Source of the DNA: Streptomyces sp. NBC_01276
Lineage (GTDB): Bacteria > Actinomycetota > Actinomycetes > Streptomycetales > Streptomycetaceae
NCBI RefSeq assembly: GCF_041435355.1
Contig: NZ_CP108442.1
Location: 2,852,001 to 2,916,000, forward strand
Direction of reading: 5' to 3'
DNA: 64,000 nt
The notes beneath the pieces are model-generated. The model was not told the DNA's origin. It made no database searches and saw only the letters and a program-made list of their open reading frames with translations. How positions within the stretch are numbered: position 1 is the stretch's first letter; each line of letters starts with the position of its first letter. Positions 32,497 to 38,791 of the stretch are shown one piece after another. The position numbers and the translations under genes are program-made.

Positions 32497-33071
32497 TCCG
32501 AGCCCTCTTCGCCCAGCGGAGCGACCGGCACCGCCACCGCCGTGTAGGTCCGGCCGTCGACGACGTACTCCCCCAGCGGGATCATCCCGAAGGCGTCGAC
32601 GTGGACCTTCCACGAAGATGCGTTCCCGGCTTCGATGAAGGCCACCAGCAGCCCGGCCCGCCCCACCGCCGCGTCGAGCGCCATCCCGAACAGCCCCCGG
32701 GCCACCCCGTGTCCGCGGAACGCGGCGTCGACCACGACCGGCCCGTACAGCAGCCACGGCACCTCGCCGAGCGGCCGCCCCTGCCAGTCCAGGCCGTCCT
32801 GCGCGTGCAGCAGCCCGAGCACCGCCGCCGGCGGGTCGCCCATGTCCCGGGCCACCGACAGCGCGAGCAGTCCGGCGAGCCGCCCCTGCCCGGCATCGGC
32901 GACCAACAGCTCCCGGTCCCGGGCCATTCCGCGCAGGGTCTCGACCCCGAAGGCCCCCTGCACGAAGCCCTGTTCGGCCCGCTGCTCCTCGGTCAGGGCG
33001 TCGTGGTGATTGGCCGCGAACAGCCCGGCCAGGGCCGGCGCGTCGGCTTCTACGGCATATCGGTAGCGCAT
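32487..33071 (-). CDS. GNAT family N-acetyltransferase
   Basis: A 194-residue acetyltransferase. Motif A for acetyl-CoA reads GPVVVDAAFRGHGVARGLFG (R/Q-x-x-G-x-G/A). The N-terminal strand-helix is YRYAVEADAPALAGLFAANH, and the motif B region has GRAGLLVAFIEAGNASSWKV. The short C-terminal beta strands are TYTAVAVPVAPL. ATG 33071 is used. The substrate is unknown. Three copies of a 13-bp tandem repeat lie in its 5' leader. Confidence 0.88.
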   Translation of the reverse strand: MRYRYAVEADAPALAGLFAANHHDALTEEQRAEQGFVQGAFGVETLRGMARDRELLVADAGQGRLAGLLALSVARDMGDPPAAVLGLLHAQDGLDWQGRPLGEVPWLLYGPVVVDAAFRGHGVARGLFGMALDAAVGRAGLLVAFIEAGNASSWKVHVDAFGMIPLGEYVVDGRTYTAVAVPVAPLGEEGSEPA

Positions 33072-33096
33072 GCCCCCGATGCTGCCACGGGGGTGT

Positions 33097-33135
33097 GGGT
33101 TCGAGGTGCGGGTTCGAGGTGCGGGTTCGAGGTGC
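33097..33135. repeat. 13-bp tandem repeat, three copies
   Basis: GGGTTCGAGGTGC is repeated exactly three times at 33097-33109, 33110-33122 and 33123-33135. It sits between the GNAT start and the macro-domain stop, where the GNAT promoter should be. The copy number may differ between strains. Confidence 0.9.
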
Positions 33136-33144
33136 GGCTGAGGG

Positions 33145-33621
33145 TCAACTCCGGTCGTAGACCGTCACCTCCACGTCCCGGGCGCACAGGGCGTCGGTGA
33201 TCAGCGGTTCGATACGGGACCACTTGCCGCCCGCGAGCCCGCAGCCTATCCGGGGCATGTGGACGCCGGCCCCCAACTCGACGGCGTGGTCGGCCAGGGT
33301 GGCGAGAGCGCGCGCGACGGCGTCGTAGCGGATCGGCGGGCCGCCGCTGCCGGTCCGGATCCCGCGCTGGCCGACCATGTTGGCCACCCACACGTCGGGC
33401 TGCACCCGCACCACCTGCACGGCCCCGAGCCCGAAGTCGTTCCCGCTCCTCCCCCGGTGCCAGGCCCGGAACGCGGCCTCCGGCTCGGGCCAGCGCCGCG
33501 ACACGGCGAGCACGAACCCCTTGCCCCACCCGCCGATGTCGTTGCACACGTGCGCGATCAGCTTCGGCCCCTTGGCCTGCGGACTCGTGGCATCTCCGGC
33601 GATGATCCTGATCGGCTTCAT
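33145..33621 (-). CDS. Macro-domain protein (ADP-ribose binding)
   Basis: A 158-residue single macro domain. It has LIAHVCNDIGGWGKGFVLAV, the ADP-ribose-contacting N-D-x-G-x-W-G-x-G motif of the Poa1/TARG type, and a second loop VHMPRIGCGLAGGKWSRIEP with the catalytic-type GCGLAGG sequence. Proteins of this type bind or hydrolyse ADP-ribose-1''-phosphate or ADP-ribosylated targets. ATG 33621 is used. There is no clear toxin or tRNA-repair partner next to it. Confidence 0.9.
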   Translation of the reverse strand: MKPIRIIAGDATSPQAKGPKLIAHVCNDIGGWGKGFVLAVSRRWPEPEAAFRAWHRGRSGNDFGLGAVQVVRVQPDVWVANMVGQRGIRTGSGGPPIRYDAVARALATLADHAVELGAGVHMPRIGCGLAGGKWSRIEPLITDALCARDVEVTVYDRS

Positions 33622-33653
33622 GCCTCCACGCTAGGCGGCGGCACCGACAACCC

Positions 33654-33794
33654 TCACTGGATGCTCCAGCGGTGCGGGTGCCCGGGATCGGACGGGCAGG
33701 CGAAGACGTTGAGCTCGCCCTGCTCGGGATGCAGCACGCGGGGCTCCACCACGTACCCGGCGTCGAGCGGGCGCGGTGGCGCGGTCCGGGTCAT
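33654..33794 (-). CDS. Small protein, 46 residues
   Basis: ATG 33794 opens a 46-codon frame: RPLDAGYVVEPRVLHPEQGE then LNVFACPSDPGHPHRWSIQ. The composition (Cys, His, Trp) is unlike a chance frame, and codons keep the GC-rich third position. It ends 33 bp before the macro-domain gene's start on the same strand and may be co-transcribed with it. There is no good ribosome site upstream. The function is unknown; the single Cys and several His could bind a metal. Confidence 0.5.
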   Translation of the reverse strand: MTRTAPPRPLDAGYVVEPRVLHPEQGELNVFACPSDPGHPHRWSIQ

Positions 33795-33826
33795 GGGAGG
33801 GGCCTTGTGCAGAGCGGGGCCGGGGC

Positions 33827-33960
33827 GGCGGTGCGCCCTTGGTCCGGATCAGGGGAGGGCTGGGGGCAGCCAGCCCACCCCAAACGGCGATCAGACCGTC
33901 CGGCAGTGACTTCGGGACGGCAGGCGCGTCAGATCGCTACGCGCTTCTCCCGGCTTGGCG
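33827..33960 (+). repeat. Dispersed repeat, copy A (short form)
   Basis: This 134-bp non-coding segment is repeated in inverted orientation at 36432-36820. The first 41 bp match at 39 positions and the remaining 93 bp at about 85, with no gaps. Here the two halves join directly at GGGCTGGGGGC-AGCCAGCCC. It fills most of the 204-bp gap 33795-33998, which otherwise shows nothing recognisable. Confidence 0.85.
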
Positions 33961-33998
33961 TCCGGCGGCCGTCCGGTGCCGGTGTGGTGGGCCGGGGC

Positions 33999-34988
33999 TC
34001 ACGGAGCGAGGGCCTTCAGGAGGGCGCGCTCTCGCTCGGCGCTCAGGCCGGCCCGGCGCGGTCGGGCCAGGCCTGCTTCGCGCTCCCAGTTCAGGGTGTC
34101 CCTCAGCAGCTCGGCCCGGGGGCGGTGGCGCAGGCCGGCCGCGACCGCCGCTGCTCCGCTGCGCGCTCCGAAGCCGGCCCACTCCCGGTCGGGCATCCAC
34201 ATGGCCAGCGATTCCGGCCCCATGAACCGCTCCACGCCCTGCGCGAGCAGCCAGTCGGGGTCGGCCCCCACGACCGGCCCGGTGTGCCCGCCCACCTCCC
34301 GGGACAGGGCGACCCACTCGGCGAAGGGCACGACCGGGCCTACCGCGTCGTACGTGCCGGTCGTCCCCTTCTCGGCGCCGTCCAGCAGCCACGCCGCGAG
34401 GTCCCGGACGTCGATCGCCTGCGTCAGGAGGTCCGGGGAGTCCGGGACCAGCATGGGCGCCAGCGGGTCGCGGGCGGCGCGGGCCACCCAGTAGCCGGTG
34501 CGGCCGCTCCCGTCGCCGGGACCGGCGATCAGCCCGGCCCGCGCGATCAGCAGCCGATCCCCCACCGCGGCTGTGGAGGCCTTCTCGCAGGCCGCCTTCG
34601 CTTCCCCGTACACCTCGCGGCCGACCTCGGCCTGCTGGACCGCCGGAAGGAGCGCGGCCGACTCGTCCGCGCCCGGCCGCCCGTGCTCGGCGTACGCGCT
34701 GACCGACGACACGTACGACCAGTGCCGGGCGCGGCGGCCGAGGGCGGCCAGCGCGCCGCGCACGAAGCCGGGTTGCCAGGACACTTCGACCACGGCGTCC
34801 CAGTCACGGCCCGCCAGGGACTCGTACGCCGTGGGGTCGCGCCGGTCGGCGGCCACCAGACGCGCGCCCTCGGCCACCCCGCCGCTCTCCCCGCGGGCCA
34901 GGCAGGTCACCTGGTGCCCCCGTCCGTGTGCCTGCCGCGAGATCTCGCGGCCCACCCATGCCGTTCCGCCCAGTACCAAGATCTCCAT
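33999..34988 (-). CDS. NAD-dependent epimerase/dehydratase family protein
   Basis: A 329-residue short-chain-dehydrogenase-like protein. The nucleotide-binding motif reads [20 protein letters not shown] (GxxxxGR variant of GxxGxxG). The active-site region around [14 protein letters not shown], then [14 protein letters not shown] has a YGxxK. The C-terminal half is longer and helical. ATG 34988 is chosen as the start of the Rossmann strand. The function is probably an NAD(P)H-dependent reductase of a small or sugar substrate. It is followed by copy A of the dispersed repeat and is divergent from the iron-box membrane gene. Confidence 0.88.
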
Positions 34989-35111
34989 CAGCCCACTGGA
35001 CCACGGCCTGCGGGTCCGGGGCAGGCCCCTTCGCCCAGAGCGGAGCGCGCGTGGGGGTGTGGCGGGGTTCACGGTCTTGGGTCGTGGACGTGGATTGACG
35101 GAAAAGAGTCT

Positions 35112-35130
35112 TTAGGTAAGCCTTACCTTG
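35112..35130. promoter_or_regulatory. Iron box (DmdR1/IdeR-type)
   Basis: AGGTAAGCCTTACCT (35114-35128) is a perfect 15-bp palindrome and fits the TTAGGTTAGCCTAACCTAA iron box at most positions. It overlaps the probable -10 region following TTGACG (35095-35100) of the membrane protein gene at 35179. Repression by the iron-loaded DmdR1-type regulator is expected. Confidence 0.8.
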
Positions 35131-35178
35131 CCTCGACGCGGCAGACAGTGCCGTGACCTTCCCCCGGAGTCAGCTCAC

Positions 35179-35736
35179 ATGTCGTCCCCCGCCGTCAGAC
35201 TTCCCGCCCGTCCTGTCCGCCTGTTCGACTCGTGGTGGACGGTGGCGGCGGGCGCGGTGTGCGCGATGGTCGTGCTGACGGCCGGCCTGTGGTTCTCGCT
35301 CCACATACAGACCGACGAGACGCTGCATTCCGCCGCGCTCTTCGTGCACCTGGCCTCCCTCGTGCTCGGCTTCGGTGCGGTCCTGTCGGCCGACTACTAC
35401 GGGCTCCTCTGGGCCACCGGGCGCTGCACCCTGACCGAGGTGGTCGGTGCGACCGCGCGGCTGCACGTACCCATCTGGGCCGGTCTCGGGGGCCTCGTGG
35501 CGAGCGGCATGATGCTGCGCCCCGACGTGCACTCCCCGCTGACCCTCACGAAGCTCGGGCTGGTCGCCGTCCTCACCCTCAACGGACTCCAGGCGGGCCT
35601 GCTGGGCCGCCGGATGGAGGAAGTGACCTTGCCGGTCGGCGGTCGGCTCCTGCTGTGGGGCGGGGTGACCGCCCTCGTGTCGCAGGCGTGCTGGTGGGGC
35701 TCCGTGGTCATCGGCTTCCTCAACACCAACACCTGA
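35179..35736 (+). CDS. Iron-regulated membrane protein
   Basis: A 185-residue protein with four to five membrane helices. It contains TVAAGAVCAMVVLTAGLWFS, HSAALFVHLASLVLGFGAVL SADYYGLL, a helix after ATARLHVPIWAGLGGLVASG, and a final helix. Histidines within or at the ends of helices (HSAALFVH, LHVP) could bind haem or metal. ATG 35179 lies 49 bp after an iron box, so it is expected to rise under iron limitation. I recognise no named family; a role in iron or haem handling is inferred from the operator alone. Confidence 0.78.
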   Translation: MSSPAVRLPARPVRLFDSWWTVAAGAVCAMVVLTAGLWFSLHIQTDETLHSAALFVHLASLVLGFGAVLSADYYGLLWATGRCTLTEVVGATARLHVPIWAGLGGLVASGMMLRPDVHSPLTLTKLGLVAVLTLNGLQAGLLGRRMEEVTLPVGGRLLLWGGVTALVSQACWWGSVVIGFLNTNT

Positions 35737-35737
35737 T

Positions 35738-36379
35738 TCAGCGCGGTGCGACCGCTTCCAGTTCGTCGACGGTGCCGGACATGATGACGCGGACGTGCTC
35801 GGTGATGTGCTCGGCGGGCCAGTCCCACCAGGCCACCCGCAGGAGGCGGGCGACGTCGGCATCGTCGTAGCGCGTGCGGACGAGGCGTGCGGGATTCCCG
35901 CCCACGATGCCGTAGTCGGGAACGTCGTCGACGACGACGGCGCCCGAGCCGATGATCGCCCCGTGACCGATGCGCACTCCGGGCATCACCATCGTGTCGT
36001 AGCCGAACCAGACGTCGTTGCCGACCACGGTGTCACCCCGGCCGGGCAGTCCGGTGAGCAGGTCGAAGTGCGCGGCCCAGGACCCGCCCATGATGGGGAA
36101 CGGGAACGTGGAGGGACCGTCCATCCGGTGGTTGGCGCCGTTCATGATGAATCGGACCCCGGTCCCGAGGGCACAGAACTTCCCGATCACCAGCTTCTCC
36201 GGCCCGTAGTGGTAGAGCACGTTGCGGGTCTCGAAGGCGGTCGGATCGTCCGGATCGTCGTAGTACGAGTACTCCCCGACCTCGATCAGCCCGGACGTCA
36301 CGAGCGGCTTGAGCAGCACCACGCGCGGCTGGTCGGGAAACGGGTGCAACACCGTCGGGTCCGCGGGCAATTGGTCCAT
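35738..36379 (-). CDS. Vat/CatB-type xenobiotic acetyltransferase
   Basis: A 213-residue left-handed beta-helix acetyltransferase. It begins with a Vat-type N-terminus (LVTSGLIEVGEYSYYDDPDD), followed by FCALGTGVRFIMNGANHRMD with the catalytic His, then the hexapeptide repeats VVGNDVWFGYDTMVMPGVRI GHGAIIGSGAVVVDDVPDYG, and ends in IVGGNPARLVRTRY. This matches enzymes that acetylate streptogramin A or chloramphenicol. ATG 36379 is used; GTG 36391 is in frame. Whether it is a resistance enzyme or a metabolic homologue cannot be told. Its upstream DNA is copy B of the dispersed repeat. Confidence 0.9.
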   Translation of the reverse strand: MDQLPADPTVLHPFPDQPRVVLLKPLVTSGLIEVGEYSYYDDPDDPTAFETRNVLYHYGPEKLVIGKFCALGTGVRFIMNGANHRMDGPSTFPFPIMGGSWAAHFDLLTGLPGRGDTVVGNDVWFGYDTMVMPGVRIGHGAIIGSGAVVVDDVPDYGIVGGNPARLVRTRYDDADVARLLRVAWWDWPAEHITEHVRVIMSGTVDELEAVAPR

Positions 36380-36431
36380 GGTGAGCGCCACGTTAATTGA
36401 CGCCCATGTCCAGCCCCAGACGGATCGCAGC

Positions 36432-36820
36432 CGCCATGCCGAGCGAAGCGCGTAGCGATCCGACGCGCCTGCTGTCCCGAAGGCACTGCCGGACGGTCTG
36501 ATCGCTGTTTCGGGTGGGCTGGCTGCCCCCGGCCCGGGATCTGATGGATGTGGGCCCGTATCTCGGGTCTGGCCAGGCGGGGAGGGCTCGCACATCTCTG
36601 GCTGGCCCCCAGGCCCTCGGTTTCCTCCCGGCCGTTTCCCTGGGGGCTTCCCGACAGTCTTTGGCATTCCGGGGCGGGACGGTCGGTCAAGGGTGGCCGA
36701 AGGCCATCGCGAAGCGACGCGACGAAGGAGCGCCCTTGAGGGACCGTCCCGACACGGAAGGACAGTGGACTGGCGGGACGCCCCCAGCCCTCCCCAGACC
36801 CGGACCAAGGGCGCACCGCC
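36432..36820 (-). repeat. Dispersed repeat, copy B (long form with 255-bp extra segment)
   Basis: This is the inverted counterpart of 33827-33960. Its two ends match copy A at over 90 per cent, but between them lies an extra 255 bp (36536-36790 by this alignment) flanked by the near-identical 11-mers GCCCCCGGCCC (36525-36535) and GCCCCCAGCCC (36780-36790). The extra segment holds an 18-bp inverted repeat (36676-36693 with 36733-36750, 16 matches) enclosing two small hairpins (36694-36706 and 36707-36722). The 486-bp gap 36380-36865 has no gene; outside copy B I see only C-rich sequence. Confidence 0.8.
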
Positions 36821-36865
36821 CACCCCCGACCCCTACCCCACCCAGCACAAAAACCCCCCGGCCCC

Positions 36866-37348
36866 CTAACCCCCCAGCAGCCGCCCCCAGCGCCTGCGCT
36901 CCGTGGCCAGGCAGGCCGTCGCCAGGGCCGTCACGGCCACCGCCGCCCAGGCCGGCCAGGCCGCCCAGGCGGCCGCGACCGCAGCCACCAGCTGGAGCAG
37001 CACCAGCGCCACCGTCACCGCGCCCGGCACCGGGACGATCACCTGGGTCTTGTCGCCGGGCGTGGCGAACAGGGTCGGCAGGCCGATCAGCACGACCACG
37101 GAGCCCGCCGCCGCCCAGGCCGACCAGCCGGCCAGGGCCCAGGGGGTGGCCACCCAGGCGCAGAGCTCCGTGGCGAACCGGAACACGGACGCCACGTCGG
37201 GCGCCCCGGCACCCCCGGGCCCTCCCCCGGCCCCGGCCCCGGCCCCGGCCCCGGCCACCGCATCCCCCACCGCATCCCCCACGACGTCCACCCCTCCGCT
37301 CGCACCGGCCGTTCCGTCGGCCCTCGCACCCGCCGTCGGGTCCACCAC
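36866..37348 (-). CDS. YrdB/DUF2568 family membrane protein
   Basis: A 160-residue protein. The first 55 residues are low complexity (Gly/Ala repeats from CCCCGG hexamers at 37227-37257). The rest is a YrdB-like domain with four helices: FRFATELCAWVATPWALAGW, then VVVLIGLPTLFATPGDKTQV and PGAVTVALVLLQLVAAVAAA. The motif near FATPGDK is typical of the family. GTG 37348 is used; a start inside the repeat cannot be excluded. The role is unknown. Confidence 0.72.
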   Translation of the reverse strand: MVDPTAGARADGTAGASGGVDVVGDAVGDAVAGAGAGAGAGGGPGGAGAPDVASVFRFATELCAWVATPWALAGWSAWAAAGSVVVLIGLPTLFATPGDKTQVIVPVPGAVTVALVLLQLVAAVAAAWAAWPAWAAVAVTALATACLATERRRWGRLLGG

Positions 37349-37579
37349 CCGACCCCGGCCGCAGCCACCCTAGAACCCGCCTCAAGTGACGAGCGCAACA
37401 CCTCCGCCACCCCCGGCCCGGGCCCCACTCATTCCGCAGGTCACGGTGGCGGCGCGCCGCCGTTTCAAAGGGTGGACGGGGCCACCACCCCACCCATCGC
37501 GCGAAACAGGACATTTCCCTACACCACATTCGGCCGAATTGACCAAGCGGGCGGCCGCGGGGGGCCGTAAGCTCCCGTC

Positions 37580-38791
37580 ATGCAGGTGATCCAGTCAACG
37601 AAACTCGCCAATGTCTGCTACGAGATCCGCGGCCCCGTCCTCGAAGAGGCGATGCGGCTCGAAGCTGCAGGTCATCGCATCCTCAAGCTCAACACCGGCA
37701 ACCCCGCGGCCTTCGGCTTCGAGTGCCCGCCGGAGATCCTTGAGGACATGCTCCGCAACCTGGGCAACGCCCACGGCTACGGGGACGCGAAGGGGCTGCT
37801 GTCGGCGCGCCGCGCGGTCATGCAGCACTACCAGACCAAGGGCATCGACCTGGACGTCGAGGACATCTACCTCGGCAACGGCGTCTCCGAGCTGATCCAG
37901 ATGTCGATGCAGGCGCTGCTCGACGACGGCGACGAGGTCCTCGTCCCCGCGCCGGACTACCCGCTGTGGACCGCCTCCGTCTCGCTGGCCGGCGGCACCG
38001 CCGTGCACTACCGGTGCGACGAGCAGTCCGACTGGATGCCCGACCTCGCCGACATCGAGCGCAAGATCACCGACCGCACCCGCGCCATCGTGATCATCAA
38101 CCCGAACAACCCGACCGGCGCCGTCTACGACGACGAGATGCTCCGCGGGCTGACGGACATCGCGCGCCGCCACAACCTGGTCGTCTGCTCCGACGAGATC
38201 TACGACCGGATCCTCTACGACGGCACCACCCACACCAACACCGCCGCGATCGCCCCCGACCTGCTGACGCTGACCTTCAACGGACTGTCGAAGAACTACC
38301 GCGTCGCGGGCTACCGGGCCGGCTGGATGGCCGTCTGCGGCCCGAAGAAGCACGCCGCCTCGTACATCGAGGGCCTGACGATCCTCGCCAACATGCGCCT
38401 GTGCGCGAACATGCCCTCCCAGCACGCCGTCGCCACCGCCCTCGGCGGCCGGCAGTCGATCAACGACCTGGTCCTGCCGGGCGGACGGATCCTGGAACAG
38501 CGCAACGTCGCGTACGACCTGCTCACCCAGATCCCGGGCGTCACCTGCGTGAAGCCGAAGGGCGCGCTCTACGCCTTCCCGCGGCTCGACCCGTCCGTCT
38601 ACAAGATCAAGGACGACCGGCAGATGGTCCTCGACCTGCTGCGGGCCGAAAAGATCATGGTCGTGCACGGTACGGGCTTCAACTGGCCCGAGCCCGACCA
38701 CTTCCGCATCGTGACGCTGCCCAACGCGAAGGACCTCGCGGACGCGGTCACCCGGATCGGCAACTTCCTGGACGGATACAGCCAGCCGTAG
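37580..38791 (+). CDS. alaA: Alanine transaminase-type PLP aminotransferase
   Basis: A 403-residue class I/II aminotransferase, nearly identical in layout to E. coli AlaA (YfbQ). It has LNTGNPAAFGFECPPEILED, YGDAKGLLSARRAVMQHYQT, the cofactor site APDYPLWTASVSLAGG, NPNNPTGAVYDDEML (Asn), CSDEIYDRILYDGTTHT (Asp, Tyr) and the PLP lysine in NGLSKNYRVAGYRAGWM. It interconverts pyruvate/glutamate and alanine/2-oxoglutarate. There is no Shine-Dalgarno sequence, and TAAGCT lies 7 nt before ATG 37580, so the mRNA may be leaderless. Confidence 0.94.
   Translation: MQVIQSTKLANVCYEIRGPVLEEAMRLEAAGHRILKLNTGNPAAFGFECPPEILEDMLRNLGNAHGYGDAKGLLSARRAVMQHYQTKGIDLDVEDIYLGNGVSELIQMSMQALLDDGDEVLVPAPDYPLWTASVSLAGGTAVHYRCDEQSDWMPDLADIERKITDRTRAIVIINPNNPTGAVYDDEMLRGLTDIARRHNLVVCSDEIYDRILYDGTTHTNTAAIAPDLLTLTFNGLSKNYRVAGYRAGWMAVCGPKKHAASYIEGLTILANMRLCANMPSQHAVATALGGRQSINDLVLPGGRILEQRNVAYDLLTQIPGVTCVKPKGALYAFPRLDPSVYKIKDDRQMVLDLLRAEKIMVVHGTGFNWPEPDHFRIVTLPNAKDLADAVTRIGNFLDGYSQP

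Follow-up and report, generated by a model that had tools for sequence, protein, structure and literature searches.

The systems that come closest to the element described here are the miniature inverted-repeat transposable elements and mobile insertion cassettes (MITEs and MICs), the gene cassettes of integrons with their attC sites, and the repetitive extragenic palindromes (REP) with their paired form (REPIN) and the REP-associated tyrosine transposases (RAYT). The element lies in a window of 64,000 nucleotides from Streptomyces sp. NBC_01276, C1:2852001-2916000 of a 9.37-Mb genome that we call G000 (other genomes are numbered G and loci L). A preliminary description of the window had noted an inverted repeat of two copies, A and B, which match on both sides of a 255-bp segment found only in B. 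We find that the two copies mark the left (A) and right (B) end of a single cassette, which holds three genes between them (33,983-36,400). Their pairing around cargo, and the genome-wide, multi-species family of hairpin-ended cassettes to which they belong, go beyond what had been described.

MITEs and MICs are similar to these cassettes in that most copies are without a transposase, the ends are inverted, some copies have cargo and there are small cargo-less copies. Inverted terminal repeats without a transposase gene are also what we found (cargo partly scanned; the exception is a DDE_5 gene in L180). On the other hand, the present ends are about 430 bp long with a cloverleaf and repeated inner motifs, the sites are shared across species, no defined termini or target duplication were found, and no partner was recognised among the 38 cargo proteins that were scanned, the DDE_5 gene apart. 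Integron cassettes also bring small accessory genes beside sites conserved in their folded structure, but the sites there are in direct orientation, one per cassette, while here 50 of 53 neighbouring hairpins are inverted and the pairs are dispersed over the chromosome. A true integron integrase (TIGR02249) was rejected, with none of 28 genomes over the cut-off and weaker tyrosine-recombinase matches in all of them. REP and REPIN sequences are likewise dispersed intergenic hairpins in inverted pairs, but the cassettes are much larger and enclose genes. The REP/RAYT candidate was rejected on the absence of the Y1 transposase (PF01797) from 11 of 14 hairpin-rich genomes; it is present in the other three, including the window's own, and in 2 of 14 hairpin-free genomes. 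Streptomyces telomere palindromes and the terminal repeats of parvoviruses, including adeno-associated virus, have inverted ends that fold into branched hairpins, the loops of which are small and stable. The cassette ends differ from these in lying at internal chromosomal positions, and the likeness meant here is one of form. In the titles and abstract openings, as distinct from the full texts, found by a literature search, the element is not named.

Two ends of one cassette

The inverted match of A and B around the 255-bp difference was reproduced. Positions 33857-33982 match 36410-36535 at 86% over 126 nt, and 33822-33875 match 36772-36825 at 87% over 54 nt, while blast gave 91.3% over 104 nt for the inner match and 85.5% over 62 nt for the outer one. 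The two 11-mers of B are one base apart as had been reported, GCCCCCGGCCC at 36525-36535 and GCCCCCAGCCC at 36780-36790 (both plus strand), and the single 11-mer at A's join is GCCCCCAGCCC. A and B also lie where they had been placed, but their limits had to be redrawn, to about 33815-33982 for A (minus strand, from the inverted matches) and about 36401-36846 for B (plus strand, intact, from matches in the own genome and in relatives). Further copies, the absence of which had been named as speaking against a repeat, do exist. At least 32 matches to B were found in the own genome among the best 40 of 70 candidates, of which six, B and five more, run over the full length at 91-100%, and therefore the match between A and B is not due to chance. 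A and B are not independent of each other, as dispersed repeats would be; they are the two ends of one unit. That no gene lies in either copy holds as far as we can judge; the open frames crossing B were taken for extensions of the adjoining cargo gene or for chance frames.

At least 13 inverted pairs and one single end were found in the own genome, and in each pair the minus copy is on the left and the plus copy on the right. For a wider view, a pattern scan covered at least 120 stretches in genome contigs (80 of them named), each picked by one pattern match only. A single hairpin was present in 68 of the 120 stretches. The 50 neighbouring hairpins in -/+ order, out of 53, have a median gap of 883 bp; the rest are one case each of --, +- and ++, the -- case having its hairpins 1 bp apart and being maybe one split hit. 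With the exact pattern the order was -/+ in 31 of 31, and on contig 1 of G369 in all 12 neighbours within 4.5 kb (38 hits there, among the best 40 of 78 candidates). Most of the named stretches are from Streptomyces (S. goshikiensis, S. virginiae, S. lavendulae, S. toxytricini, S. katrae and others), and Actinomadura, Nocardia, Mycobacterium, Intrasporangium and Janibacter are represented as well. B itself was matched in 19 of 61 genomes of the genus including its own, ten of them with at least four matches (among the best ten candidates per genome).

For the 255-bp difference, either an insertion in B or a deletion in A had been proposed. The insertion is ruled out by the five full-length copies and by the segment being kept at this locus in two relatives: the 255-bp piece is the core of a cassette end, not an inserted element. 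The comparison supports A as a deletion product that lost the 255 bp between the two near-identical 11-mers, because the other close copies are full length, all five of them in the own genome containing the segment, and because G180 and G053 keep an intact left hairpin at the window locus (in G276 it has decayed). A's join is unique among the 27 ends mapped in the own genome. What is missing from A between the 11-mers is the cloverleaf, not detected in A by motif scan, together with neighbouring sequence. The downstream 11-mer sits at the 3' foot of the hairpin stem, as slippage across the folded hairpin would predict, and such slippage may have produced the deletion.

A is not the only end to have lost this part. 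By motif scan the cloverleaf is present at 21 of the 27 mapped ends, and the six without it are A, the right ends of L039 and L042, and the left ends of L040, L041 and L043. Three of these losses, in A, L040 and L043, are clean gaps, each with different boundaries. No pair in the own genome is without the cloverleaf at both ends, and one cloverleaf was lost in 5 of 6 cargo-bearing pairs compared with 1 of 7 others (p 0.029), an association computed for the own genome only, as the loci of other genomes had been chosen for strong hairpins. If the cloverleaf is needed for movement, pairs with one of them lost would be fixed.

Structure and occurrence of the cloverleaf

From the outside inwards, an intact end consists of a C-rich edge, a long imperfect stem with a three-armed cloverleaf, a spacer, and the inner motifs. 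The outer edge has no sharp terminus and fades into a C-rich flank of variable length. In B the stem is at 36640-36787 (plus strand; self-complementary at 71.5% over 151 columns) and the cloverleaf head at 36681-36745 (plus strand), where three short hairpins with GNA-type triloops stand on one stem, as assigned from motif instances and from covariation in related sequences. In B an inner motif with GCGCGTAGCGATC occupies 36401-36470 (plus strand), and up to five copies per end occur in relatives; in A the inner repeat motif is at about 33921-33982. Inner motifs in general contain GATCGCTACGCGC or close variants. Most ends of G369 have 1 to 5 copies with a spacing of about 103 bp, while several pairs of G180 have two copies about 66 bp apart; in both genomes the motifs are oppositely oriented in the two ends, with one extra reversed copy in L172. 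The motif pattern gave no match in most pairs of G004, G006, G012, G038, G040, G045 and G053, so the motif may be tied to some genomes or be too diverged for the pattern.

Compared with shuffled sequences, the folding of 36630-36800 has a z value of -7.24 as DNA and -4.15 as RNA, whereas the window's own cloverleaf head taken alone folds weakly (z -2.54) with its third arm open. The covariation was evaluated with 21 cloverleaf sequences, all of 67 nt, hand-chosen from 73 strings; those of another length and those whose first arm is of a different form were excluded. In this set, 95.4% of cells are paired compared with 90.0% in shuffles, double-sided changes occur in 7 pairs and 24 cells compared with 3.0 and 4.3, and the pairing is destroyed when the partners are slid. 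The loops are mostly GNA with the middle base free (the exceptions are AAA in L095 and ACC in L105), and there are GA/GA mismatches in the third arm. Both features recall very stable DNA mini-hairpins, and because of this resemblance we lean to a cloverleaf that would act as a folded DNA strand rather than as RNA. One point toward a possible RNA is that the long hairpin folds better than shuffles as DNA and RNA alike. Rfam gave nothing above the gathering score in 33000-37600, with one sub-threshold match outside A and B. As a separate observation, a perfect palindrome with arms of 17-22 nt lies in the middle of the loop at L031 2528-2574 and at the like place in L032-L036. These are cargo-less elements of the own genome, and the palindrome was not seen in the scanned cargo-less elements of other genomes.

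Actinobacterial DNA contains the cloverleaf, and a shorter form of it was seen in Alphaproteobacteria. A phage origin was not indicated, with no similarity to a 451-bp query and three weak partial matches to a 59-nt query; one IMG/VR contig has the exact cloverleaf pattern (L391 7679-7713). Plasmids carry it as well. In 8 of 17 plasmid stretches viewed, a single cloverleaf is beside mobilisation, rep or ParA-type genes, and the remaining nine have no such neighbour. On plasmids of Cutibacterium and Gulosibacter it has both mobC and a relaxase gene downstream of it, whereas a Micromonospora plasmid has mobC there and a Verrucosispora plasmid a relaxase gene; its orientation to these genes is the same in all four actinobacterial plasmids (L396 3501-3552, L397 3501-3555, L398 3501-3555 and L399 3501-3553). 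In L396 and L398 the gene immediately before the cloverleaf is annotated 'recombinase family protein'. A gene for ParA or another ATPase is its neighbour, or lies one gene away, on plasmids of Paenarthrobacter, Arthrobacter and Pseudonocardia. In a Curtobacterium plasmid of 1,579 bp the cloverleaf (L103 770-822) is 30 bp behind the presumed rep gene, whose PF02486 match is below the cut-off, and this position suggests a role in single-strand replication. Single-strand origins, which are required to convert single-stranded plasmid DNA, and the leading-region hairpins of plasmids form a class for comparison. In the eight stretches the cloverleaf stands singly beside a rep-like, ParA-type or mobC/relaxase gene, while on Streptomyces chromosomes it is found in inverted pairs around cargo. 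Its position and structure would make a single-strand origin, or else a site of the leading region, the natural candidate role of the plasmid cloverleaf. A shorter cloverleaf-like hairpin with changed stem bases was also seen near transposase genes at about 4001-4067 of L097, L098 and L101, which are alphaproteobacterial plasmids of Acidiphilium, Sinorhizobium and Skermanella. The alphaproteobacterial neighbours had suggested ISL3, like IS110, as a carrier, and no inverted repeat of at least 16 nt was found round the ISL3 gene.

Cargo and shared sites

The cargo of the window consists of three genes, all with provisional start codons. Gene 1 (33999-35072, minus strand) encodes a member of the NAD-dependent epimerase/dehydratase family (PF01370, E 5.6e-9), gene 2 (35128-35736, plus strand) a probable membrane protein, judged from its own sequence and without a Pfam match, and gene 3 (35738-36400, minus strand) a hexapeptide-repeat protein (PF00132), probably an acyltransferase. 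The stops of genes 2 and 3 are separated by 1 bp. The cassette is flanked on the left by a gene of 158 aa (33145-33621, minus strand), which has a match next to the site in G053 and in G276 and a partial one in G180, and on the right by an aminotransferase gene, named from its sequence (37580-38791, plus strand), which serves as the anchor of the orthologous site.

Elsewhere, pairs enclose from none to a few small accessory genes, as called by a simple script based on GC content by codon position, which makes errors. The 64 pairs analysed were taken from hit lists in a way that favours pairs with two well-scoring hairpins; there is less than 1 kb between the hairpins in 34 of them and more in 30. 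This spacing is a rough sign of cargo only: the short L040, L042 and L043 carry a gene, and some long ones show none called. Of the forty proteins submitted to Pfam, 37 are encoded within pairs and two by flanking genes, and the remaining one adjoins the single hairpin of L127. The families in the cargo include PadR with an alpha/beta hydrolase, glycosyltransferase, DUF2867, GntR/UTRA regulators, SnoaL, MarR, glyoxalase-family, NUDIX, HAD, GDSL, GNAT and CYTH, as well as a phosphotransferase (APH) with an NmrA-like protein and an AraC/GyrI protein with a Cass2 match; several proteins have no Pfam match. The DDE_5 gene in L180 is the one transposase among the 38 cargo proteins scanned. A short module of about 270 bp, which seems to code for a small protein (about 80 aa), turns up in the cargo of many sites, namely in L166, L168 and L171 of G369 and in L179, L182, L183, L186, L188 and L189 of G180.

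Nine sites have matching flanks on both sides and a pair in at least two genomes, and at five of these the cargo differs: L038/L165/L188 (adjoining a polysaccharide deacetylase gene), L043/L133/L185 (adjoining DUF6325), L042/L189, L167/L184 and the window site. At L032/L180 there is cargo in one genome only, and L031/L197, L035/L134/L181 and L132/L135/L196 have no convincing cargo. At the window site, G000 has the epimerase, membrane and hexapeptide proteins, while the sole cargo called in G180 is a homologue of gene 2 (79.6% over 686 bp). In G053 the DNA alone was read as an aldo/keto reductase gene and one of TetR type, with no match to the window's cargo genes, G276 has no cargo called, and in G038 the right hairpin is near the contig end. 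No cloverleaf was found in the other 14 of 18 loci fetched, of which G045 is cut short by a contig end. At another site, between TetR and MaoC genes, a pair is present in 2 of 30 loci (G180 and G053) besides the own genome and 28 are without one. TetR was recognised in 21 of these loci, the other 19 of which have only 86-380 bp between the genes; an apparent remnant of the stem is kept in G276.

Cargo is also common to different sites. The GntR cargo of L042 (G000) is 82.6% identical to that of L188 (G180) over 437 bp, L171 (G369) and L186 (G180) have 2.1 kb of cargo in common at 71%, and L173 has pieces in common with L182 and L179. In addition, the aminotransferase neighbourhood has a pair on its other side in G369 (L166 1782-5134), with a right flank that matches what lies beyond the aminotransferase in the window, and therefore this neighbourhood was used more than once.

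The hairpins themselves do not follow the sites. For 103 of 107 hairpins the nearest one is in the same genome, and it is never at the orthologous site. The mean distance is 0.161 between orthologous sites and 0.159 between other sites of different genomes, compared with 0.096 within one genome. Judged by these distances, the sites are common to species but the hairpin sequences behave as genome-wide families. Either conversion takes place between the copies or the same sites were filled anew in each lineage, a choice that the distances alone do not make; both would mean traffic between sites, which would also carry cargo.

Explanations and meaning

The family of hairpin-ended gene cassettes is real. 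Beyond this, we infer that its contents are exchanged through the ends, and on the reading that we consider probable, a non-autonomous gene cassette of this kind has A and B as its inverted ends. Cargo would be exchanged when shared ends recombine with each other; the agent could be an enzyme supplied in trans (a recombinase or a transposase), or the hairpins could break and be repaired by homology, and the loss of one cloverleaf would fix a cassette in place. Several points weigh against this reading. The 38 cargo proteins scanned, 37 of them from pairs and the other from beside a single hairpin, contain no recurrent transposase or recombinase, and no enzyme for the exchange was found, with cargo partly scanned and genome screens covering the Y1 transposase and integron integrase only. 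All 28 genomes tested do have tyrosine recombinases of kinds other than integron integrase, taken here as one group. No target-site duplication or exact terminus was found at the copies inspected, which was done by eye and not systematically. No recent event was caught because the relatives are only about 80-96% alike next to the sites. Ordinary homologous recombination through the flanking core genes could also swap cargo, and the link between a lost cloverleaf and cargo may only reflect age. A more specific version seems doubtful enough to be put forward as speculation: inverted single-strand-folding sites derived from a plasmid hairpin would bracket the cassettes, an enzyme would assist an integron-like exchange between docking sites spread over the chromosomes of the S. 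lavendulae/virginiae group, and losing one cloverleaf would freeze a cassette.

One form of exchange through the ends would need no dedicated enzyme. A hairpin nuclease would break the long palindromes and repair from other copies in the genome would gene-convert ends and cargo, which we regard as a real possibility somewhat short of probable. It would account for hairpins homogenised within genomes though the sites are shared, for the cloverleaf having been lost more than once, in A from between direct repeats, and for the inner loop common to cargo-less copies of one genome. In E. coli without SbcCD and RecA, a 246-bp interrupted palindrome is reported to provoke chromosomal rearrangement (PMC3315005). 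By itself, however, hairpin-provoked repair leaves pairs at new sites, the strict -/+ order, the conserved triloops and the covarying head unexplained. Another account is a site-specific non-autonomous transposon of the MITE/MIC type: whole units, cargo included, would be inserted independently into preferred intergenic targets, with the transposase provided from another source. Such a transposon agrees with the long inverted ends and their repeated subterminal motifs, with genome-specific cargo-less copies (some oppositely oriented), with relatives that have loci lacking the pair, and with hairpins no more alike at orthologous sites than at others. We find it rather unlikely nevertheless, as no constant terminus, target duplication or partner element was seen, and at L033 the sequences of G000 and G180 align through the right hairpin and its junction into the neighbouring gene, which looks like shared descent.

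The pairs could instead be neutral passengers, bidirectional terminators or insulators, with the cargo varying by ordinary recombination through flanking core genes. The examined pairs do sit between genes according to the simple gene caller, the hairpins are strong, and in our reading several pair-less relatives have a terminator-like hairpin at the TetR/MaoC site. But the orientations of the flanking genes are mixed and not convergent only, which rules out a terminator restricted to convergent genes; terminators need no pairing, subterminal repeats or GNA triloops, and cargo is common to different sites. We regard neutral passengers as unlikely. An integron-like system with folded single-stranded sites is very improbable. 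Its hairpins would be folded as here, one cargo protein matches the integron-associated Cass2 domain, and small cargo of these kinds is often met in integrons; against it stand the inverted pairs in place of direct arrays and the lack of an integrase over the family cut-off in the 28 genomes.

For Streptomyces, the cassettes are a concrete carrier for the differences of one to three genes between related members, the route of which is often unclear. The marked docking sites predict where to look for such differences, and the folded DNA end is a testable object. With phosphotransferase (APH), acetyltransferase and glyoxalase families in its cargo, the family may matter for the flow of tolerance genes, and the cloverleaf itself may prove to be a functional single-strand site of plasmids that had not been described.

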